IMG/VR virus record: IMGVR_UViG_3300025886_000048
Span: 1 to 46,582 of that record
Length of the DNA stretch: 46,582 bases
Strand: one strand, 5' to 3'
Origin: a virus
The notes under the pieces were generated by a model. The model saw only the letters and a list, made by a program, of their open reading frames with translations. It ran no database searches and was not told the DNA's origin. Positions 25,609 through 45,170 of this stretch are shown piece by piece. Numbering within the stretch: the stretch's first letter is position 1; every line of letters begins with the position of its first letter. The position numbers were made by a program, and so were the translations under genes.

Positions 25609-28600
25609 TTATTTTATCTTTAAGAAATAGGTACCTGGGTCTGAGGGGTCTTCTTCTCTCCAAATTCTATTAGTTTCTGTTGGTTCTGAAGTTGGAAGAG
25701 AGGCAGCATCTAAGTAGATACCATTAGCATAGTTTACAACTAAAATATTTTTTCTACCTGCATCACTTACTCCATTACCTATTACAAATAAAGCGTCTGA
25801 AATGTTTGATAAACCTGCAGCAACTGAACCCGAATTGTTATACTGGCCTATTACTGTTTGGTGATTTCTTCCATCTTTTAGAGCTTGACCATGTACATGA
25901 GTGTAATCATGGGAACCTGTTGAAAAAGCACCTCCCACATGAGTAAAGTCACCACTTGCTAAAGATTTAAACCCTTCAGCATGGCTATAAACTCCAGAAG
26001 CAGATGTTAATTGTCCTTCGGCGTGTGCTGCTATTCCACCAGCATAGGTAGCATTACCTTCAGCATGTGAATATTGCCCCTCAGCAACTGAAAGATAACC
26101 TTCAGCATGTGAGTAATTACCTAAAGCTTTAGTATCCCAACCTTCAGCATGTGAATAATCACCTGATGCTGAGGTTATTCTACCTTCAGCGTGTGTATAT
26201 TGTCCTTCAGTTAAAGTATCTCTACCTTCAGTGTGTGAATACCATCCTTGAGCTGTGGTTTCAAGACCTTCAGCATGAGATGCTCTACCACTAGATAACG
26301 TACTTTGACCTTCAGCATGAGCCCAACTATTTGAAGCGGTTGTAAAATACCCTTCAGTATGAGATCCTTCTCCACTTGCTAAGGTATTTTGACCTTCAGC
26401 GTGAGCACTATCCCCACTTGCTGTTGTTGATTCACCTTCAGCGTGAGAAGATGGAGCAGAAGCTATTGTAGTGAAACCTTCAGCATGAGAATTACCTCCG
26501 GATGCTATTGTACTTCTACCTTCAGCATGATCATAACTTTGTTGAGCTTGAGTATTTAAACCTTCAGCATGGGAATTTTCACCGGTTGCTGAGGTTTGCT
26601 GCCCATGAGCAAATGAATTAAATTGTACAACATTATTAGGATCACCTTGGGCCATACTTCCCGTAATGAGAACACCGCGGGAAGAAGTAACCCATAAATT
26701 ATTTGCTGTTACGTGCCAATCGTCGTCTTCCCCCCCTGAACCTGTGTTAATTGTAAGAATTTCAGTAGTACCATCCCCTTGATAAAAAGTAATTTCGTTA
26801 AGGTTAACAGATGATGAGTAATAAAATGAACCAGTATCAACAACAGAGTATGAACCTGTATATTCAAATTGACCTGTTGTTGGGTTAAATACTACAACGT
26901 TAGTACCACTACCATTAGTATCTTCTGGGATGGCTGCCCATAAAGCACCACTTGCACTTATATCGTTACTTGCAGTAACTGAAGCGTTTAATGTGATAGC
27001 ATTAGAATTAAATAATGCTAGATTGCTTCTGTTAAGATCATTAATGCCATTACCAATGATCATTAATGAATCAGAATTAGCAATATTCCATTGACCTTGA
27101 ACATGTTGGTTTTCACCTTGAGCAATAGTCCCTAAACCTTCGGCGTGTGAAGATTTACCGGAAGCAACTGTACTTGAACCTTCAGCATGAGAATTTAGTG
27201 ATGTTGCTTGTGTGTCTTGCCCTTCAGCATGAGATGATTGACCCGAAGCTAATGAACCTGAACCTTCAGAGTGAGCATATAAGCCTGAGGATATTGTACT
27301 AACACCTTCAGCATGTGATTGATCCCCTGAAGCTAAGGTGTTGTTACCTTCGGCATGAGCTTCTTGTCCAGAAGCTATAGTTGATTGTCCTTCAGCATGG
27401 GAATATACTCCTGAAGCTGTGGTGAATCTACCTTCAGAGTGGGCAGCAAAAGCAGATGCTAAAGTGTTTTGTCCTTCAGCATGGCTTGAAGCACCACTAG
27501 CAGTAGTAAATCTACCTTCGGAGTGTGCTGCTTTGTTACTAGCTAAAGTAGTATCACCCTCAGCATGAGATACAGGTCCTAATGCTAATGTATTTATACC
27601 TTCAGCGTGGGATCTTTCTCCCAAAGCTACAGTATTTTCACCTTCAGCATGAGAAGATAATCCAATAGATATGGTATTCCAACCTTCAGCATGAGACCAA
27701 CTTCCAGAAGCTATTGATCCTGAACCTTCAGCATGAGAGAAGCTCCCAGAGGCTAATGTGTATTGGCCTTCAGCGTGTGATGCTTCACCAAATGCTTCTG
27801 TTTCTTTACCTTCAGCGTGAGATGTTAAGCCTGAAGCTGAAGTGAAATAACCTTCAGCATGGGATTGATCTCCTATAGCTAGAGTATTATTACCTTCAGC
27901 ATGAGAGGAATTTCCTTCAGCAATTGTATAAAAACCTTCAGCGTGAGCATATCCTCCTAAAACTTTTGCATAAAAACCTTCTGCATGGGATGCAACTGCA
28001 AGTTCTCCTGTAGAAGTATACCATCCTTCGGTATGAGAAGTACTTCCACTAGCTATTGTATATTGACCTTCAGCATGTGAGGTGGGACCATAACTAACGT
28101 TATGTCGACCTTCTGCGTGAGAATAATCACCTTTAGATACATTTTGACCTCCTTCAACATGAGAATAAGAACCCGAGGTTATGTTAGAAACCCCTTCTAC
28201 GTGAGAACCTATTGCGGGGAGGGCAGTGTAATTAAGATGTCCTTCGGCATGTGACCAAGATGCATAGGTTATAGTATTTTCACCTTCAGCATGGGAATAT
28301 ATTCCATTGGTGTTAGTGTTAGACCCCTCAGCGTGACTTCCTATGGCTCCAATGTTTGAGGTGGTATCTTTACCTTCAGCGTGGGAGTAAAGCGCAAAAG
28401 CATTTGTACCATGTCCTTCGGCATGGGAGTATTGACCACTAGCGACTGTAGATTGTCCCTCAGCATGGGCCCCCACACCATTAGAAGTTGTATTGTTACC
28501 TTCAGCATGTGAATAGTTACCATTTGCTTCTGAAAAGTATCCTTCAGCATGTGAGTAATCACCTGCTGCAGTTGTGTTTCTACCTTCAGCATGTGAATAC

Positions 28601-30585
28601 TCACCTGAAGCTATTGAAGGATTGTTTTCGCTTCCTTGGGCTACACTCCCTGTAATGAGAACACCGCGGGAAGAAGTAACCCATAAATTATTTGCTGTTA
28701 CGTGCCAATCATTATCTTCTCCACCTTCACTACTACCATAGGATCCAGTATATTCAAATTGACCTGTTGTTGGGTTAAATACTACAACGTTAGTACCACT
28801 ACCATTAGTATCTTCTGGGATGGCGGCCCATAAAGCACCACTTGCGCTTATATTAGCGCTTGCGGTTACATCAGCTTTTAATTCAATTCCATTAACATTA
28901 AATAATGCTAAATCATTTCGGTTATTAGTATCACTACCATTACCAATGATCATTAATGAAGTATCATTATTATGGGTATTATATTTACCCTGAACGTGTT
29001 GATATGAGCCTGAGGCGATGGTGCCTAAACCTTCAGCGTGAGAATAATACCCTTCTGTTATTGTGCTTTGGCCTTCAGTATGGGAAGCATCTCCTTTAGC
29101 AACACTATAAGCACCTTCAGCATGTGAGTATAAACCTATAGCTCGAGCACCCTGTCCTTCAGCATGTGAGGCGAAACTCTCCGCAATAGTAGTTGCACCT
29201 TCAGCATGAGAATTGAAACCCCCAGCTGTGGTATTTATACCTTCTGCGTGAGAGTTAGTTCCTGAGGCTATAGTACTATCACCTTCAGCATGGGAAGAGC
29301 GACCTGAAGCTGTAGATTCATTTCCTTCAGCATGTGAATATTCTCCAGAAGATATTGATCCTGAGCCTTCAGCGTGTGATCTAAGACCTGAGGCTATGGT
29401 TTTATATCCTTCAGCATGAGATGCAACTCCAGAAGCTATAGCCAATTGACCTTCAGCATGACTATAATCTCCTGATGCTGTAGTAAGACGTCCTTCAGCA
29501 TGTGTTGATGTAGCAGTTGTTAGAGTATTTTCACCTTCAGCGTGTGAATATAATCCTAAGGTATTAGTACCAAACCCTTCAGCATGGCTATAAGGAGAAG
29601 AAGCAGTTGTAAAATAACCTTCAACATGGGATGAATCTGCAACTGCGGTTGTAAGAGTTTTTCTACCTTCAGCATGTGAGTAGGATGCTAGAGTAATAGT
29701 ATCTCTACCTTCGGCATGTGAAAAACTGCCTGATCCTAATACATTTTGTCCATGAGCAAAAGCAGCGGTAGCGACTGCTTGTGTATTACTACCATGAGCA
29801 AAAGCAAAGTCTGCAGTAGCAGAAGTAAAATTATCTCCAATTGCAATAGGAGCACAAGCTGTAAAATCTACTACAGGAGAAGGACCCATTAATAATCCAC
29901 CACAACAATCTATTTGAACAAATCCAAAAGGATTAAATACTATAGTTTCACAATTCTCATTAAGTGGGTATATAGTAAAAGATCCTGAGGTAACTATATT
30001 ACCTAATATAGTATTAGTAGTAGTATTGTCACTTTTACCTAAAGTAATATTATTACCATTTACATCAATTAAAATTCCATTTGAATTAGCATGGTAAAAT
30101 CTATCAGTACCTAATCGGAAAATAGTATTATCATCACCATCTGCAAAAATTGCTTGGGTAGTTGTCCATTTAGAAGCATCAACTCCTCCTTTTGAAGTAG
30201 TAGTAGCCGATTTACCTAATTGGAGGGCGTCTAATTCTTGCTTGGTAAAACTTGATATAGAAGCTCCATCAACAAAATTTATAGATCCATCAGAAACATA
30301 AAGTTCTTTCCATGCTTGGGTAGGACTTCCTAAATTAAAAGAAGAAGTTGTTTCTCCACCTCCTACATCTGGGAGGATATTCCCAGAAATAAACAGGGTG
30401 TTATTTATGTCTACGCTTCCGTCGAATATGACGGTTTCTCCTGCTGCAGAAGATGTTGTTCCTAAACGAGCATTTATTACATCGTATAAGCTGTTAACTG
30501 AAGTTTTAGTATCATTAAATATAGAAGCACTAACGGCACTATCAGCACCGTTATTTGCTCTATCATCCCAAGTAATTTTTGCCAT
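25609..30585 (-). CDS. Giant YadA-head-repeat (SHAEG) fibre/adhesin
   Basis: A 1658-residue protein. The N-terminal 240 residues are a non-repetitive assembly region ('NNTTTNTILGN' type strands and a Cys-containing stretch). Three blocks of dozens of 14-residue repeats of the kind SHAEGxxTxASGxY follow; this is the Hep/Hag (YadA head, PF05658-type) left-handed beta-roll. Two connector regions (GSYQHVQGKYNTHNNDTSLM and the later QHVQGQWNIANSDSLMIIGN) divide the blocks, each followed by the same ISASGALWAAIPEDTNGSG and VTANNLWVTSSRGVLITGS stretches. The last 130 residues end DPSDPGTYFLKIK. Such head domains are trimeric adhesins, here probably a long host-binding fibre (inference). Confidence 0.88.
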   Translation of the reverse strand: MAKITWDDRANNGADSAVSASIFNDTKTSVNSLYDVINARLGTTSSAAGETVIFDGSVDINNTLFISGNILPDVGGGETTSSFNLGSPTQAWKELYVSDGSINFVDGASISSFTKQELDALQLGKSATTTSKGGVDASKWTTTQAIFADGDDNTIFRLGTDRFYHANSNGILIDVNGNNITLGKSDNTTTNTILGNIVTSGSFTIYPLNENCETIVFNPFGFVQIDCCGGLLMGPSPVVDFTACAPIAIGDNFTSATADFAFAHGSNTQAVATAAFAHGQNVLGSGSFSHAEGRDTITLASYSHAEGRKTLTTAVADSSHVEGYFTTASSPYSHAEGFGTNTLGLYSHAEGENTLTTATSTHAEGRLTTASGDYSHAEGQLAIASGVASHAEGYKTIASGLRSHAEGSGSISSGEYSHAEGNESTASGRSSHAEGDSTIASGTNSHAEGINTTAGGFNSHAEGATTIAESFASHAEGQGARAIGLYSHAEGAYSVAKGDASHTEGQSTITEGYYSHAEGLGTIASGSYQHVQGKYNTHNNDTSLMIIGNGSDTNNRNDLALFNVNGIELKADVTASANISASGALWAAIPEDTNGSGTNVVVFNPTTGQFEYTGSYGSSEGGEDNDWHVTANNLWVTSSRGVLITGSVAQGSENNPSIASGEYSHAEGRNTTAAGDYSHAEGYFSEANGNYSHAEGNNTTSNGVGAHAEGQSTVASGQYSHAEGHGTNAFALYSHAEGKDTTSNIGAIGSHAEGSNTNTNGIYSHAEGENTITYASWSHAEGHLNYTALPAIGSHVEGVSNITSGSYSHVEGGQNVSKGDYSHAEGRHNVSYGPTSHAEGQYTIASGSTSHTEGWYTSTGELAVASHAEGFYAKVLGGYAHAEGFYTIAEGNSSHAEGNNTLAIGDQSHAEGYFTSASGLTSHAEGKETEAFGEASHAEGQYTLASGSFSHAEGSGSIASGSWSHAEGWNTISIGLSSHAEGENTVALGERSHAEGINTLALGPVSHAEGDTTLASNKAAHSEGRFTTASGASSHAEGQNTLASAFAAHSEGRFTTASGVYSHAEGQSTIASGQEAHAEGNNTLASGDQSHAEGVSTISSGLYAHSEGSGSLASGQSSHAEGQDTQATSLNSHAEGSSTVASGKSSHAEGLGTIAQGENQHVQGQWNIANSDSLMIIGNGINDLNRSNLALFNSNAITLNASVTASNDISASGALWAAIPEDTNGSGTNVVVFNPTTGQFEYTGSYSVVDTGSFYYSSSVNLNEITFYQGDGTTEILTINTGSGGEDDDWHVTANNLWVTSSRGVLITGSMAQGDPNNVVQFNSFAHGQQTSATGENSHAEGLNTQAQQSYDHAEGRSTIASGGNSHAEGFTTIASAPSSHAEGESTTASGDSAHAEGQNTLASGEGSHTEGYFTTASNSWAHAEGQSTLSSGRASHAEGLETTAQGWYSHTEGRDTLTEGQYTHAEGRITSASGDYSHAEGWDTKALGNYSHAEGYLSVAEGQYSHAEGNATYAGGIAAHAEGQLTSASGVYSHAEGFKSLASGDFTHVGGAFSTGSHDYTHVHGQALKDGRNHQTVIGQYNNSGSVAAGLSNISDALFVIGNGVSDAGRKNILVVNYANGIYLDAASLPTSEPTETNRIWREEDPSDPGTYFLKIK
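26663..26721 (-). repeat. 59-nt direct repeat within the SHAEG gene, copy 1
   Basis: Identical over 59 bases to 28652-28710, inside the connector encoding HVTANNLWVTSSRGVLITG. The exact identity contrasts with the diverged SHAEG repeats around it. Confidence 0.9.
26858..26934 (-). repeat. 77-nt direct repeat within the SHAEG gene, copy 1
   Basis: Identical over 77 bases to 28748-28824, and nearly identical for about 20 more bases after one mismatch. It encodes PEDTNGSGTNVVVFNPTTGQ. Confidence 0.9.
28652..28710 (-). repeat. 59-nt direct repeat within the SHAEG gene, copy 2
   Basis: Second copy of the 59-base unit at 26663-26721, about 2 kb upstream in the same gene and in the same orientation and frame. 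Confidence 0.9.
28748..28824 (-). repeat. 77-nt direct repeat within the SHAEG gene, copy 2
   Basis: Second copy of the 77-base unit. Together with the 59-base repeat it marks a duplicated connector module. Confidence 0.9.
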
Positions 30586-30622: not shown

Positions 30623-31321
30623 TCAGTAAATTGGATTGTCAATGTAATAATCTCTTAAATCTTCAACTATTTCATTCCTGTGATTGGACTTTAAAGTGAT
30701 TGCTTCTAGATTTTTAACTTTACGTGATGCTTTGTATAGATATTTAAAACCAGAATCTGATTTTTTCTTTAAGTCTGTTTGGTGTTGATCCCCACATACC
30801 ATCATTTTAGAGCGTAAACCCAAACGTGTTACAATCATTTCCATTTGTTCGTGTGTTACGTTTTGGGCTTCATCTACAATAACACATGAATCCAAAAATG
30901 TTCTACCTCTCATAAATGATACAGGTACAATTTCTATTTTACCATCTTTAATAAATTTTTCTACTTTAGCTTTGTCATATAAAGTAAAAAAGTTTTGATA
31001 GATAGGTTGTACCCAAGGATCCATTTTTTCTCTTAAATCACCTGGGAGGAATCCTATATCTTCTTTTGATACTGTAGGGCGTGTAATTATTACTTTTTGG
31101 TATACTCTCCTAATTAAACCATCTAAAGCTATTTGGCAAGCTAATAATGTTTTACCCGATCCCGCTTGTCCAGCTAATAAGGTAATTGTATTATCTAATA
31201 TTACTTGTTTAGCTTCTTTCTGTTCGTCGTTGAGTGATACTTTAAATTTAATTGGGTTCTTCACTACTTTTTTTTCTCTGAAGATTTCTTCAGCTTTTGG
31301 GGTGGTATTGAAATGGGTCAT
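30623..31321 (-). CDS. phoH: PhoH-like P-loop ATPase
   Basis: A 232-residue protein using the ATG at 31321 (MTHFNTTPKAEE); an upstream Met at 31342 would deepen the overlap with the PSD gene and is less likely. The core is a PhoH-family AAA-type ATPase: Walker A GQAGSGKT at residues 51-58, the PhoH segment TVSKEDIGFLPGDLREKM, and Walker B VIVDEAQN at about 147-154. PhoH is common in marine phages. A nucleotide-hydrolysing, RNA-related role has been proposed for the family but not settled. Here it overlaps the PSD gene by about 32 bases and forms the end of the metabolic cassette, suggesting co-expression. Confidence 0.92.
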   Translation of the reverse strand: MTHFNTTPKAEEIFREKKVVKNPIKFKVSLNDEQKEAKQVILDNTITLLAGQAGSGKTLLACQIALDGLIRRVYQKVIITRPTVSKEDIGFLPGDLREKMDPWVQPIYQNFFTLYDKAKVEKFIKDGKIEIVPVSFMRGRTFLDSCVIVDEAQNVTHEQMEMIVTRLGLRSKMMVCGDQHQTDLKKKSDSGFKYLYKASRKVKNLEAITLKSNHRNEIVEDLRDYYIDNPIY

Positions 31322-32039
31322 TTCTAAAATTAATTTTAACAAGTTTGTCTAATCCTGCATTTACATGCATTGTATCTTTTAAGACAAGGTCAAAATCGTA
31401 TCTTTCATCCAAAGGAAGAACTAAATCAACTTGTGATCCCCATCTTATAAGTGAAAAACGTTCATTTTGCGACACAGGCGCATTTTGATCGTTAATAAAG
31501 GGGGCAATTACATTAACATCTTCATCAGCTATTTGTACTAAGTAATAAGTATAATCTAATTGTGGAGAATATATTTTATTTAACATTCTCTCATTGTATT
31601 TAAGATACTCTAAATTGTTGGGGTTAATCGCAGCATTTAAAATATCCTTTTCTACAGCAAGCATAGGTTTGTTAGTAGATTCTATGGGATCTAATCCTTT
31701 ATATTGTAGTATGCCTGCATAGGGTATTCTATTTATATGAACATCATAAAATGACATAAATATTCCAATTACAAGAGACGGTTGATTATAGTGTTTATCA
31801 CCAAGTACGTCTTGTAAAGTGTAATTCATACCTTTAATTTCTACTATAGAATCAGTAGGATTTTCTATAAATTTTTGGTATAAAATAGTGCCGTCTGCTG
31901 GGGAGTAGAAATGTTTGTAGTCTATATAGTTGGGACGCATGGGGTCCCTAAAAAAGAATGTGTTTGATAATTCTCCTACTTCTAACTTCGAAAGCTCAGC
32001 TACTTCTCCGTCTAACCAATCTTCTAAATATTGAGCCAT
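31290..32039 (-). CDS. psd: Phosphatidylserine decarboxylase (short, bacterial/archaeal type)
   Basis: A 249-residue protein with all signatures of the PSD family, whose enzymes turn phosphatidylserine into phosphatidylethanolamine using a self-generated pyruvoyl group. Visible are FFFRDPMRPN near residues 28-37, SPADG at 46-50 (catalytic Asp 49), GIFMSFYDVHINRIPYAG near 92-109 (His 101), and ERFSLIRWGSQVDLVLP near 193-209. The Gly-Ser at 201-202 is the usual self-cleavage site, leaving pyruvoyl-Ser. No N-terminal membrane segment is seen; short-type PSDs associate peripherally. The gene starts by TAATG overlap with the DDAH-like gene and ends inside phoH. Auxiliary metabolic function in host lipid remodelling is inferred. 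Confidence 0.92.
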   Translation of the reverse strand: MAQYLEDWLDGEVAELSKLEVGELSNTFFFRDPMRPNYIDYKHFYSPADGTILYQKFIENPTDSIVEIKGMNYTLQDVLGDKHYNQPSLVIGIFMSFYDVHINRIPYAGILQYKGLDPIESTNKPMLAVEKDILNAAINPNNLEYLKYNERMLNKIYSPQLDYTYYLVQIADEDVNVIAPFINDQNAPVSQNERFSLIRWGSQVDLVLPLDERYDFDLVLKDTMHVNAGLDKLVKINFRNDPFQYHPKS

Positions 32040-32953
32040 TAAAGTAAGGATTTAGTATAATCAACGTAATTTAAGTGCATTATCATACAACTTAACATAG
32101 CACCCGATTTCATATATTCTGAAAGGTTAAAAAATACTGGTTCTAGTCCTTCATTAAAGCATATTTTTTCTATGCTTTCAATTTTATGTTTTTCAGCTTC
32201 ATAATTTTCATCTGCTCTAGTCATTTCAGAAATGTTAGAGGCACATAAGATCATGTTACCTAAACGTACAGAATTAGTTAAACCGTTAAGAGCATCGTCA
32301 ATTTCTACGTTTACTATGTTAGTATACTGTGATAATTCAGCTAATTCATCTTCATTGAAGAGTTCCGTGCAAACTAATGTTTTATCCATAGTTAACGGGA
32401 AAATAGAACAATCGAGGTGATATAAATATTCATCAACCATTTCAAGTTTAATGATTTTCATATCAAATTCTTTTTCCATCCATTCATAAGCTTTGATATC
32501 TGAACGGATTCCATATCCCCCTACATAAACATTGTCATAAAGATATTTTAAGTCTGCTTCTCCTTCCCATTTAAAAGGGCACATGTGGACTTTATAATTC
32601 ATTAATTCAAAAAATGGTTTTCCTACTTCTTCTTCACCTTGGCGAGGTTCTGAAGTGAAGTTAGCCATGATGATATTATTTGAATCTTTAATATGGGGAA
32701 GGTAAATACCTAAGTTAGCAACATAAACTAAATCTTGATAATTTCCTTTGGCAGGAAGATTACACACAAGTCCATTACCTGCTACAAATTGGTACAAATC
32801 TAAAAATTGTCTATAAGCGTTTCCTTTATTTATTTTTAACGCTTCTTCCTCCAACTCTTGCATCCAAACATTATTTGGAACTGCTGTGTCTAATGTGAAG
32901 GGGAAATTCATAACAAATGCCGGGATTGGCAACTGAGAGGGTGTCTCTTTCAT
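32039..32953 (-). CDS. DDAH/arginine-deiminase-like amidinohydrolase
   Basis: A 304-residue protein with the plan of the guanidino-group modifying (GME) superfamily: NYQDLVYVANLG near residues 71-82, KWEGEADLKYLY near 128-139, YVGGYGIRSD near 143-152, YHLDCSIFPL near 178-187, and SGAMLSCMIMHL near 283-294. The expected catalytic residues are visible (Asp/Glu of the EGEAD motif, His 179, Cys 289). Family members hydrolyse arginine, methylated arginines or related amidines to citrulline-type products, or transfer amidino groups. The precise substrate cannot be read from the sequence. It is the first gene after the capsid terminator, has a TATATTTAT element 26 bases upstream, and is coupled by TAATG to psd. 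Confidence 0.85.
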   Translation of the reverse strand: MKETPSQLPIPAFVMNFPFTLDTAVPNNVWMQELEEEALKINKGNAYRQFLDLYQFVAGNGLVCNLPAKGNYQDLVYVANLGIYLPHIKDSNNIIMANFTSEPRQGEEEVGKPFFELMNYKVHMCPFKWEGEADLKYLYDNVYVGGYGIRSDIKAYEWMEKEFDMKIIKLEMVDEYLYHLDCSIFPLTMDKTLVCTELFNEDELAELSQYTNIVNVEIDDALNGLTNSVRLGNMILCASNISEMTRADENYEAEKHKIESIEKICFNEGLEPVFFNLSEYMKSGAMLSCMIMHLNYVDYTKSLL

Positions 32954-32979
32954 TTAATATATACTTTTATTGATTTATT

Positions 32980-32988
32980 ATAAATATA
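32980..32988 (-). promoter_or_regulatory. TATATTTAT element upstream of the DDAH-like gene
   Basis: CTATATTTATAATAAATC, 26 bases before the ATG and 21 bases beyond the gp23 terminator stem: a terminator-then-element order as at gp19/gp26. Confidence 0.45.
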
Positions 32989-33009: not shown

Positions 33010-33033
33010 AAAGCCCCACCGAAGTGGGGCTTT
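33010..33033 (-). terminator. Intrinsic terminator after gp23 (UUCG loop)
   Basis: The minus-strand hairpin AAAGCCCCAC TTCG GTGGGGCTTT has a perfect 10-bp stem and a UUCG loop, and is followed by TTTATTCTC. It lies 25 bases beyond the capsid gene stop and separates it from the DDAH-like gene cassette. Confidence 0.9.
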
Positions 33034-33058: not shown

Positions 33059-34675
33059 TTAGATAGTGTTTAAACCTGCTACCATGATCTTAGCATAGTA
33101 TTCAGGTCTCAACATCTTCTTAGCGTAACGAGTCAAGAGACCTTTTCTTGGAGTGAAGGTCGTTGGATCGTATACGAGAGGAGTCATGATCAATGGAATG
33201 TAAGGAGCGAAAGTAGCACCTGTTTCCAAGAATTGTGAACCTCTGAAGCCTAACAAAATAGTGTTTTCAGTCATGTATGGGTTCTTGTAAACTTCATACT
33301 TAGCATTCAAGTTACCAACTTTCTGGATACCGAATGCATAGTTCATAGTTTCAGCATCAGCACCATCAGCAGCAGCGAATCCTGGGATTGATTCCAAGAT
33401 AGTACCTACTGTTGGAGAACATACCATAAAGTTAGCACCTCCTCTTAAAGTTAACTGGTGGATCTTGTTAGATACCTTGTTTAACTTAGTACCAAGAGTT
33501 TGGAACCACTGACCTTGTGTATTGTAGAAAGTACCGTTATCTACTGCACCCGTACCATCAAATTGTTCGTTGTTTTTAGCTGACCAGTATTCAGTAGTTA
33601 AGGCATTTTCAACCAACATACCGAGGAGTTCCAAATCGATCTCAAGAGCGATGTACTCACTCATGATAGAAGTCAACTCAGCTTCAGCATCCAAGCTGTG
33701 GTAAGCATTCAAATCTTGTGCGAACTCAGGAGTCCATACAGCTTTGAGCTTTTTAGTCTTAGCAACGATTGCTTCAGACTTCATCTTGATGTTGATTTCT
33801 GGGATATCGATTGTTTCGTTTTCATTGTTGAGGGCAGTATTACCGTCCTCGAAGTCACCTCTGTATTGATCAGTTGGTTGTTGTACGTAAGTAACAACTA
33901 ATCCTGAAGGATCAGTACCATCAACACCTTGAGCAAATAAAAATACGTTAGTACCAACAACATTGTTGTAAGCAGCAACGTTTGAAGTGATAGTTGAACC
34001 AGAAACTGTAAAGCCTCTAACACCTGCTAAATCAGGATTGGCGAAAGAAGTAGTAGCAATTTCAAGTTTCTTCAAAGTACCAGCTACGATTGAAGATGAT
34101 AAAGCGGCATCATATCCAGTATCAGCCCAAGAAGCTGTTGTTGCAGTTGCAGTAACACCAGATTGAGTTACCTGTGAAGAGTAGGTCCATCTACCCGCAC
34201 CATACAAACCATCTGTAGGAGTAGCAGTAGTGTCAGTAACACCGTACAAAGAACCTGTACCGAATACATTACCACCTGCATTGAACTTACCACCTAATTT
34301 TTCAGTACCATACTGGAAATCAAGGAAGAACACAAGGCCAGAAGGTAAGTTCATTGGTTGAACGCTAACGAAATCTTTCGCTGCAATTTGACCAAATACC
34401 TTTCTTACGAGAGGAAGAGCAATACCCGCCCACTGTTCACCGGTACCTGCTTGGAAGTTACCTACTGAAGCGAGTCCACCACCTGTTTGAGACGTTTCAA
34501 CAACGAGTTGTTTCGCCTGATTTTCAAGGATCAAAGACATATTGTTTCTGTCCATCTCAGAAGAGAGGCCTTCTAACAATCCTGTCCGTGACCACTTATT
34601 GGCTAACTTAGCGGCATCAGACTGAACTGATTTCCACTGGTTAGCACTCTCTAAAAGAGAATTTAAGTTTGACAT
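33059..34675 (-). CDS. gp23: Major capsid protein gp23
   Basis: A 538-residue protein with gp23 hallmarks: a helical N-terminus, an internal GEQWAGIALPLVRKVFGQIA followed by KDFVSVQPMNLPSGLVFFLD segment, and the C-terminal pattern SQFLETGATFAPYIPLIMTP with LTRYAKKMLRPEYYAKI. T4 gp23 is cleaved by the prohead protease after residue 65. Here the motif LVVE ends at residue 60, followed by TSQTGGG, and LILE ends at 51, both candidate cleavage points. It follows the scaffold gene with a 24-base A-rich leader and is followed by a strong UUCG-loop terminator. The GC-rich, codon-optimised look of this gene relative to neighbours fits high expression. Confidence 0.97.
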   Translation of the reverse strand: MSNLNSLLESANQWKSVQSDAAKLANKWSRTGLLEGLSSEMDRNNMSLILENQAKQLVVETSQTGGGLASVGNFQAGTGEQWAGIALPLVRKVFGQIAAKDFVSVQPMNLPSGLVFFLDFQYGTEKLGGKFNAGGNVFGTGSLYGVTDTTATPTDGLYGAGRWTYSSQVTQSGVTATATTASWADTGYDAALSSSIVAGTLKKLEIATTSFANPDLAGVRGFTVSGSTITSNVAAYNNVVGTNVFLFAQGVDGTDPSGLVVTYVQQPTDQYRGDFEDGNTALNNENETIDIPEINIKMKSEAIVAKTKKLKAVWTPEFAQDLNAYHSLDAEAELTSIMSEYIALEIDLELLGMLVENALTTEYWSAKNNEQFDGTGAVDNGTFYNTQGQWFQTLGTKLNKVSNKIHQLTLRGGANFMVCSPTVGTILESIPGFAAADGADAETMNYAFGIQKVGNLNAKYEVYKNPYMTENTILLGFRGSQFLETGATFAPYIPLIMTPLVYDPTTFTPRKGLLTRYAKKMLRPEYYAKIMVAGLNTI

Positions 34676-40690: not shown

Positions 40691-40699
40691 ATAAATATT
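40691..40699 (-). promoter_or_regulatory. AATATTTAT element upstream of the portal gene
   Basis: TAATATTTATTCATATATT on the coding strand, 17 bases before the ATG; it overlaps the terminase stop codon. Confidence 0.4.
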
Positions 40700-43481: not shown

Positions 43482-43739
43482 TTATCCTCCTTGGCGTGAT
43501 GATTCTCTCATTGCAGGGTTTTTATACCATGGGACTCCATTTCTTTCTCTTCGAACTTCTTTCCATTCTTCTTCAGTATGATAAATCCCATAAATATAAT
43601 ATTCTCTTAACCGTCTTACACCCTGAGGTATGAGAGCTGGCCCTTCCCAATTGTGAAGTTTACCATCCCAGTGGTGTAATATAGTACCATCAGGGGTTTT
43701 AGTTCTTGTTGGCTTTGGCCATTTGTTATCCTTTCCCAT
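43482..43739 (-). CDS. Small DG-H-GPA motif protein
   Basis: An 85-residue basic protein with PDGTILHHWDGKLHNWEGPA near residues 16-35, a short DG-x-LH-x-x-GPA motif that recurs in small phage proteins. The second half is Trp/Arg/Glu-rich (EYYIYGIYHTEEEWKEVRRE). It is coupled by TAATG to the FAD dehydrogenase gene. The function is unknown to me. Confidence 0.6.
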   Translation of the reverse strand: MGKDNKWPKPTRTKTPDGTILHHWDGKLHNWEGPALIPQGVRRLREYYIYGIYHTEEEWKEVRRERNGVPWYKNPAMRESSRQGG

Positions 43740-45109
43740 TATTTTTTTAATATTTGTTCTGCTACTAATGTACCTTGTGCTCCCGATACTGTAATGCCTC
43801 TTGCACTTAAAGCATCACCTACAAAATGAACATTAGGATATGTAGTTAAGCTTAAATCTTGATAATTTACAAGTGGTTCAGGTGATAAGTATTTTACTTC
43901 AGGTACGTAAATTCCCCAATCATCACCAAGTGTTGGGAATACTTTTTTCATATCCTCAATAAAGTCTTCAATATATTTAAAATATCCTTTAAATGCATCT
44001 CTTACTTCTTGAAGACCAGATTCACCAATATAATGTGCTTTAACCCAATTACCTTCAGATGTAAGTGTTTTATCTTTATTTGAAGGGCTATAGTATAAAC
44101 CTGCTTTATATTTAGCTTCAAATCGTCCTAATGCTTTTTTACCACCTGATCCTTCATTTGAAACTATATTATGTTTTTGTACTTTAGAAACTAACTCACG
44201 TGACCAATCAAATGGTTTATCAATACCTTTAACTTCCATTAAGATACCAAAATTAGTCATATTGTTTCTATGTTCTTCTCCTTTTTTAGCATGACCATTG
44301 TAGCTATAATCACCATATGTTTCTTCTAGGGCCACATAAGCTGCGTTATTGTTGGTACAAAATGAACGAAGTGATACACCTTCATCTTCAAACTTACGAT
44401 ATAACTTAAAGTCATAACTTACATCAATTAATTTTTGAAAGTGTTTTTGTGGTGCTTCAAATCTAACGCCAATTTGTACTGGTTTTGGTTCTGTTGGTAA
44501 TTCATATTGTTCAGCTAATTTTTTACCAAAGTCAATGCCTGATTTTCCTACCCCAAAAATAAGAGTGTCATATCCTATCCAATCATTATCTTCTGTGCTT
44601 TTATCAGTGTGTAATTGTTGGGCATCAAAATCAATTGATGTAACCTTAGTTTTCCAAATAAATTTAACACCTTTATCACAAAGATAATCGTACCAATTTT
44701 TACCAATCTCATGTAGATAATCTGTACCTACGTGCCAAACTGGGAATAAACGTAGTCCAAAGTATGGTTTAATAAAATCAGGTTCTGCTACAGGATTAGA
44801 ACATTGTACTTCTTCTGGTTTAGGGTGGAAACGCTTAAAGTTAGTGATTACTTGGTCCATTAACTCCATTGCCTTTTCATCGCCCGTATACTTAGTTAAA
44901 TGACCACCTATTGAAGTGTGGTATGTAAGTTTACCATCACTCCATCCTCCAGCACCCATAAAACCTGTCATTACTTCCTCAGGTTTACGGTTATATGGAT
45001 CATTACCCATATCAATGATGGTAATTTCACCATCAAAACCTTCATCTACTAATTTAGTTGCAGCATTAACACCTGCTACACCTGCTCCAATTATTACTAT
45101 TTTTTCCAT
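43739..45109 (-). CDS. COG2509-type FAD-dependent dehydrogenase
   Basis: A 456-residue protein using the ATG at 45109 (MEKIVIIGAGVAGVNAA); the longer frame from 45142 adds 11 unrelated residues. A Rossmann GAGVAG motif binds FAD at residues 8-13. The segment GGWSDGKLTYHTSIGGHLTK corresponds to the GGAGAFSDGKL hallmark of COG2509 dehydrogenases, and the C-terminus has the FAD-closing VHFVGDALSARGITVSGAQG. Between them, SYNGHAKKGEEHRNNMTNFG resembles the NGMS..NAN motif of that family. The substrate of these enzymes is not established. It is preceded by a strong terminator and followed by TAATG coupling. Its function in infection is unknown; it may be an auxiliary metabolic gene. Confidence 0.85.
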   Translation of the reverse strand: MEKIVIIGAGVAGVNAATKLVDEGFDGEITIIDMGNDPYNRKPEEVMTGFMGAGGWSDGKLTYHTSIGGHLTKYTGDEKAMELMDQVITNFKRFHPKPEEVQCSNPVAEPDFIKPYFGLRLFPVWHVGTDYLHEIGKNWYDYLCDKGVKFIWKTKVTSIDFDAQQLHTDKSTEDNDWIGYDTLIFGVGKSGIDFGKKLAEQYELPTEPKPVQIGVRFEAPQKHFQKLIDVSYDFKLYRKFEDEGVSLRSFCTNNNAAYVALEETYGDYSYNGHAKKGEEHRNNMTNFGILMEVKGIDKPFDWSRELVSKVQKHNIVSNEGSGGKKALGRFEAKYKAGLYYSPSNKDKTLTSEGNWVKAHYIGESGLQEVRDAFKGYFKYIEDFIEDMKKVFPTLGDDWGIYVPEVKYLSPEPLVNYQDLSLTTYPNVHFVGDALSARGITVSGAQGTLVAEQILKK

Positions 45110-45136
45110 TGTTGTATTAAGATTATGTAAATATAC

Positions 45137-45170
45137 GAACAAAAAGTGACGTCTCCAAAGGAGACGCCAC
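45137..45170 (-). terminator. Intrinsic terminator after the histone-like gene
   Basis: On the minus strand an 11-bp stem (GTGGCGTCTCC pairing with GGAGACGTCAC, one wobble) has a TTT loop and a TTTTTGTTCG tail. It separates the small-gene cluster at 45227-46582 from the FAD dehydrogenase gene. Confidence 0.88.

Follow-up and report, generated by a model that had tools for sequence, protein, structure and literature searches.

Several described systems each resemble one part of the locus reported here. ArgZ and AgrE, from the cyanobacterial ornithine–ammonia cycle, are arginine enzymes of the guanidino-modifying fold. Phosphatidylserine decarboxylases (PSDs; PF02666) carry Asp, His and Ser residues for self-cleavage at a Gly-Ser site, and the same fold serves free amino acids in the A. 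oryzae arginine decarboxylase (9jf5, 9jer) and the tryptophan decarboxylase PsiD (8x4q). Among viruses, every Fletchervirus phage has an annotated PSD (PMC8713573), and genes of the PE pathway in viruses have been discussed as lipid genes (PMC11360552). Passages of two surveys describe SpeDA and SpeDC, SpeD-derived pyruvoyl ornithine/arginine decarboxylases of pelagiphages and bacteria, as phage-borne pyruvoyl enzymes for polyamine precursors; these passages report no phage arginase and are silent on routes through the PSD family or a dihydrolase (PMC9992855, PMC10407285).

We analysed T4-like phage DNA (IMGVR_UViG_3300025886_000048) as a single window of 46,582 nt, in which a DDAH-like gene and a PSD-like gene lie behind the gene for the major capsid protein gp23. 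The DDAH-like protein shares the fold and the key N, R, E, R, H and C residues of ArgZ and AgrE, its nearest solved relatives, but is only about 22–24% identical to them and, at 304 aa, stands alone without the ornithine-cyclodeaminase half. The PSD-like protein has the fold, the D-H-S residues and the GS site of PF02666, but is predicted to be soluble, bears an acidic motif where short-type PSDs have a basic one, forms a separate clade and has an arginine-enzyme partner. The A. oryzae enzyme and PsiD are eukaryotic and longer, and a profile search to E 10 gave no sequence similarity to it; SpeDA and SpeDC, as described in those survey passages, belong to a different family (S-adenosylmethionine decarboxylase). 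The window proteins belong to PHROG 12670 and 12759 (7e-44 and 4e-60), both listed there as of unknown function. A fungal PSD-fold arginine decarboxylase and phage polyamine genes are thus already known, and it is the DDAH-like/PSD-like combination for which we found no description in the open-access literature.

The capsid-linked locus and its predicted transcription signals

PHROG matches to portal, terminase, sheath, tube, baseplate hub and fibre proteins fit a T4-like structural region. The initial annotation had described three coupled genes directly after a gp23 terminator, and the genes, the TAATG junction, the 32-base overlap and the terminator are all present on the minus strand (Table 1). 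Pfam supports PhoH (PF02562, 5e-62), PS_Dcarbxylase (PF02666, 6e-25) and Gp23 (PF07068, 1e-72). The PSD-like/PhoH overlap is 32 bases if PhoH starts at ATG, and a TTG start at 31342 is also possible. Directly downstream of PhoH, a 1,658-aa protein (25609–30585, minus strand) carries dozens of SHAEG-type repeats that resemble trimeric-adhesin head repeats, and is likely to be a fibre or adhesin. Near the terminase gene, a further protein (43739–45142, minus strand) matches PHROG 12409 'dehydrogenase' (6e-21).

Table 1 Features of the enzyme unit and its surroundings (positions in the window)
Feature	Position	Strand	Details
gp23 major capsid protein, upstream neighbour of the unit	33059–34675	−	PF07068
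Intrinsic-terminator-like hairpin and T-run after gp23	33010–33033	−	stem AAAGCCCCAC/GTGGGGCTTT, loop TTCG
Late-promoter-like motif TATATTTATA	32979–32988	−	34–35 nt before the DDAH-like start codon
DDAH-like gene, predicted arginine dihydrolase	32039–32953	−	304-aa ORF
Cys289 codon of the DDAH-like gene	32087–32089	−	
TAATG, DDAH-like stop overlapping PSD-like start	32037–32041	−	
PSD-like gene, predicted soluble pyruvoyl-dependent basic amino-acid decarboxylase	31290–32039	−	249-aa ORF
Gly201–Ser202 codons, predicted self-cleavage site of the PSD-like protein	31434–31439	−	
PhoH-like ATPase	30623–31321 (from ATG)	−	PF02562

A strong hairpin stands between gp23 and the enzyme unit. The window has 21 copies of the motif ATATTTAT on the coding strand against a single copy on the opposite one, and 15 of the 21 are found no more than 60 nt upstream of an ORF start, where about one would be expected; this strand-specific motif is probably a late promoter of this aquatic T4-like phage group. 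Sites upstream of structural genes include those at 40698, 30614, 20505, 18127 and 12898. Within the unit, a copy precedes the DDAH-like gene and none precedes the PSD-like gene or PhoH. Both the gp23 terminator and the late motif recur in all of the intergenic regions compared among relatives (18 of 18). The enzyme unit is therefore likely to be a late transcription unit with a predicted promoter of its own and, lying behind a terminator and a late-promoter-like motif common to structural genes, would be made together with the capsid.

Conservation and spread of the enzyme pair

Scans of IMG/VR fetched about 300 overlapping loci, the first 162 of which were checked for gene positions. The order gp21–gp23–DDAH–PSD–PhoH was found in 107 of these, 25 further loci showed the same order minus gp21, and 15 ended before PhoH; some contigs were fetched twice, such that independent contigs are fewer than these counts. 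Thus the synteny search that the initial annotation had proposed shows gp23–DDAH–PSD–PhoH recurring in far more than 100 of the viral loci fetched. Median dN/dS was 0.06 for the PSD-like gene, 0.14 for the DDAH-like gene and 0.29 for gp23 (simple counting method, each against the window sequence, with only 23 PSD pairs unsaturated), and both enzyme genes are under strong purifying selection. Given the low dN/dS and the recurrence in the great majority of fetched loci, the gene order is not due to chance.

The pair extends beyond the aquatic group. The two genes are adjacent in Bacteroides phages DAC16–23 and SJC03, and both are present in Campylobacter Fletchervirus, where 42 kb separate them and they lie in the vicinity of replication and other genes rather than of the capsid gene. 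The PSD-like gene was found in 45 of 50,697 phage records, all 45 of which also hold the DDAH-like gene, although these records stem from few lineages and represent a handful of independent retentions. The DDAH-like gene occurred without its partner in two phage records, one a fragmented Campylobacter phage match and the other a distant Xanthomonas phage DDAH (21%). Searches of plasmids gave no close homologue of either gene. The retention of both genes in Fletchervirus even though they are unlinked argues for a functional tie between the two enzymes.

PhoH behaves differently. The PSD-like/PhoH overlap is not conserved among relatives, even within the aquatic clade, and PhoH was neither annotated nor seen beside the pair in the Bacteroides and Campylobacter phage regions read. 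We therefore rejected it as a module member; it is probably a neighbour in the aquatic T4-like clade only. Of the earlier proposal that three genes form one unit, a conserved, co-transcribed-looking arrangement behind gp23 with two functionally linked enzymes stands, whereas PhoH falls outside the conserved pair.

Relatives and catalytic residues of the two proteins

The DDAH-like protein has no Pfam match. Its NCBIfam matches, Arg_dihydro (3e-22) and dimethylargininase (3e-21), are both far under the cut-offs: it scored 79 bits against NF052232 (cut-off 450), indicating a relative rather than a listed member of that equivalog, and 76 bits against the DDAH model (cut-off 300). AgrE and ArgZ were the only matches in a PDB profile search (1e-31). 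The AlphaFold model (pLDDT 93) has the guanidino-modifying-enzyme fold, and Foldseek placed ArgZ first (3e-22), with DDAH-1 ten orders weaker (approximately 1e-12). Residues matched to ArgZ are N80 (N71 in ArgZ), R104, E130, R150, H179 and C289. Among 112 distinct aligned homologues, C289, H179 and E130 were kept in all and N80 in 111, with one gap; R104 and R150 were also invariant and align with R90 and R139 of AgrE/ArgZ, which hold the substrate carboxylate in that family. By sequence and predicted fold, this is a guanidino enzyme nearer to arginine dihydrolase than to DDAH; the earlier guess at arginine and nitrogen compounds pointed the right way, and it is ArgZ and AgrE, not DDAH, that come closest. 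Cyanobacteria that carry the DDAH-like subfamily also carry AgrE, which scores far lower (111–125 against 450–500 bits), so that the DDAH-like proteins are a distinct subfamily whose substrate may differ.

The PSD-like protein retains, as judged from the alignment, the Asp-His-Ser and GS self-cleavage machinery needed for pyruvoyl formation, with D49, H101, G201 and S202 invariant in 100 distinct homologues. It could be a true PSD, raising the phosphatidylethanolamine content of the host, with the arginine enzyme as an unrelated neighbour, given these residues, the PF02666 match and the E. coli lipid PSD as both its nearest solved relative by sequence and its top fold match. Structural comparison does not separate the possibilities: in VIA, PsiD (8x4q) reached Z 9.5 and the A. 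oryzae arginine decarboxylase (9jf5/9jer) Z 9.3, and with E. coli PSD all three fall at Z 9 to 11 against the model (pLDDT 82, with a low-confidence stretch at 127–145 in the part where substrate could bind), so that the fold alone is silent on substrate. The top VIA rows, 3our and 2gpr (EIIA-type beta folds), covered 137 residues only without a common motif and were set aside as a common beta arrangement.

Other features set the protein apart from the short-type lipid PSDs examined in bacteria. It has no membrane segment like that at the N-terminus of short-type PSDs (N-terminal KD19 no higher than 0.45, whereas three genuine PSDs of this type gave 1.9 to 2.6), although the long E. coli-type PSD (KD19 0.6) also lacks a strongly hydrophobic N-terminus, such that KD19 leaves room for that type. 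The long E. coli-type PSD binds the membrane peripherally. An invariant D.D motif (D172/D174) replaces the G..A(R/K)RI of short-type PSDs, and GSQ stands where these have GSR. In a tree, the PSD-like clade is separated from genuine PSDs (support 97/97, branch 2.16), and its best NCBIfam PSD equivalog score was 73 bits against a cut-off of 183.

Bacterial partners and a candidate route to putrescine

A genome scan gave 15 bacterial loci with a DDAH-like gene, to which wider searches added a few; the subfamily is rare in bacteria (386 + 395 + 245 + 246 + 189 genomes in overlapping groups), and the pairing described here rests on about a dozen species. The order is PSD-like, DDAH-like, ABC exporter in Xenorhabdus, and DDAH-like, PSD-like, MATE-type transporter in Saprospiraceae; in both lineages a genuine PSD is encoded in addition to the PSD-like protein. 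Elsewhere the decarboxylase is of another kind. In four cyanobacteria the DDAH-like gene lies beside an Orn_Arg_deC-type PLP decarboxylase, whose nearest solved structures are lysine/ornithine and ornithine decarboxylases; in Spirulina it lies beside an OKR_DC decarboxylase, and in Myxococcales a carboxynorspermidine-decarboxylase-like gene accompanies two DDAH-like copies. Three bacterial loci (L320, L322 and L326) have no decarboxylase beside the DDAH-like gene, and the three genomes checked of cyanobacteria carrying this gene have no PSD family member. The slot of the PSD-like gene beside the DDAH-like gene is thus filled elsewhere by unrelated amino-acid decarboxylases, and this is our main argument. 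A comparable swap is known from analogous mushroom clusters, in which the place of PsiD, a PSD-family protein, can be taken by the unrelated PLP enzyme IpsD and vice versa (PMC12603985).

In the DDAH-like tree, PLP-paired bacteria fall on one side and PSD-paired bacteria with most phages on the other (97/98), with the long-branched Fletchervirus among the PLP-paired bacteria. Saprospiraceae group with L165, L164 and the DAC phages in both the DDAH-like and the PSD-like trees, as expected if the pair travels together.

Such substitution weighs against a lipid enzyme: the PSD-like gene is obligately paired with the DDAH-like gene, PLP amino-acid decarboxylases take its place in bacteria (some of them without any PSD), the protein has no membrane segment and carries acidic residues where the short-type motif is basic, and the phage genomes checked contain no CDP-alcohol phosphatidyltransferase of the phosphatidylserine-synthase type (PF01066). 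A true PSD is on these grounds improbable, and the membrane-lipid remodelling suggested in the initial annotation finds no support in this soluble, separate clade. The substrate of the PSD-like protein is probably a small amino acid or amine and not a lipid.

Several bacterial loci deserve mention in their own right. The Xenorhabdus loci (L315:7209–10923 and L313–L317, L319) may form a hitherto undescribed locus for the export of small molecules or polyamines. Three cyanobacterial clusters (L308:6557–11926, L310:7980–11268 and L312:1358–6843) combine the PLP decarboxylase, DDAH-like, agmatine-deiminase-like and ABC transporter genes and look biosynthetic. A tandem of two DDAH-like genes lies behind the carboxynorspermidine-decarboxylase-like gene in one Myxococcales genome (L318:272–2897).

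The simplest chemistry that joins both enzymes and the bacterial substitutions is conversion of arginine to ornithine and then to putrescine, and on balance we lean towards this full route in that order, for which we infer the substrates and products. The DDAH-like enzyme would hydrolyse arginine to ornithine, ammonia and CO2 through Cys289 and His179, with Asn80 as the counterpart of ArgZ Asn71, the site mutated in the structure with a trapped reaction intermediate (6juz, ArgZ N71S). The PSD-like enzyme would cleave itself at Gly201-Ser202, the serine becoming a pyruvoyl group, and would then decarboxylate ornithine to putrescine in place of phosphatidylserine. The reverse order, in which arginine would first be decarboxylated to agmatine by the PSD-like enzyme and agmatine then hydrolysed by the DDAH-like enzyme, giving N-carbamoylputrescine or putrescine, would suit the action on arginine of the A. 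oryzae enzyme (9jf5), the PSD-fold decarboxylase already known for a basic amino acid, and the agmatine-deiminase-like gene near the DDAH-like gene in three of the four cyanobacteria. It is unlikely, however, since the nearest relatives of the DDAH-like protein act on arginine and the invariant R104 and R150, with their presumed carboxylate-holding role, suit an amino acid better than agmatine.

In the arginine–ornithine–putrescine route, the product would have to serve as such or through host enzymes, given that spermidine synthase and PLP ornithine decarboxylase are both missing from the phage genomes checked (neither PF01564 nor PF02784 in two reference phages and five large contigs of aquatic phages). 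Putrescine could offset the charge of DNA as it is packaged, or aid the synthesis of DNA and protein late in infection. Polyamines are present in T4, whose DNA synthesis and maturation are not normal without them (PMC7226272), and from this general T4 knowledge and the gene position we suggest a use in packaging. Tentatively, the pair may constitute a new putrescine route, made of an arginine dihydrolase and a PSD-derived pyruvoyl ornithine decarboxylase, in bacteria and at least three unrelated phage lineages, which in the aquatic T4-like group would have joined the late regulon next to the capsid gene as a source of diamine for DNA packaging. If so, a function could be assigned to two phage protein families now listed as unknown, a number of 'phosphatidylserine decarboxylase' annotations, among them those of all Fletchervirus phages, would name the wrong substrate, and caution would be due in surveys where viral psd genes are counted towards lipid metabolism. 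The conserved capsid-linked unit would tie polyamine supply to virion assembly, and would add a bacterial and viral case of a PSD fold turned to a basic amino acid, so far seen in fungi.

Two other uses of the pair were weighed. Arginine dihydrolase (ArgZ) frees two ammonia per arginine and aquatic hosts may be nitrogen-limited; the pair might accordingly scavenge nitrogen, or deplete arginine in defence or against host enzymes, with the decarboxylase only pulling the reaction. This is an improbable reading, as it leaves the constant decarboxylase partner and the late structural-gene regulation unexplained. Alternatively, the pair might make or finish an amine attached to phage DNA bases: polyamine-modified phage bases such as alpha-putrescinylthymine exist, and in Fletchervirus the DDAH-like gene lies between the gp41 and gp45 genes. 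Fletchervirus DNA also has unusual bases (cited in PMC8713573), but its deoxyinosine requires neither enzyme, the relatives in bacteria belong to clusters of a transporter or biosynthesis type, and no modification gene was seen in the annotated part of the window, which makes DNA modification very improbable.

A GMP-reductase-like gene was considered as a common partner of the pair and rejected, being found in DAC19 only and absent from the other phages checked. In that Bacteroides phage the gene (DAC19_247, L002:15895–16869; IMP dehydrogenase/GMP reductase-like) lies close to the pair and could bear on base modification.
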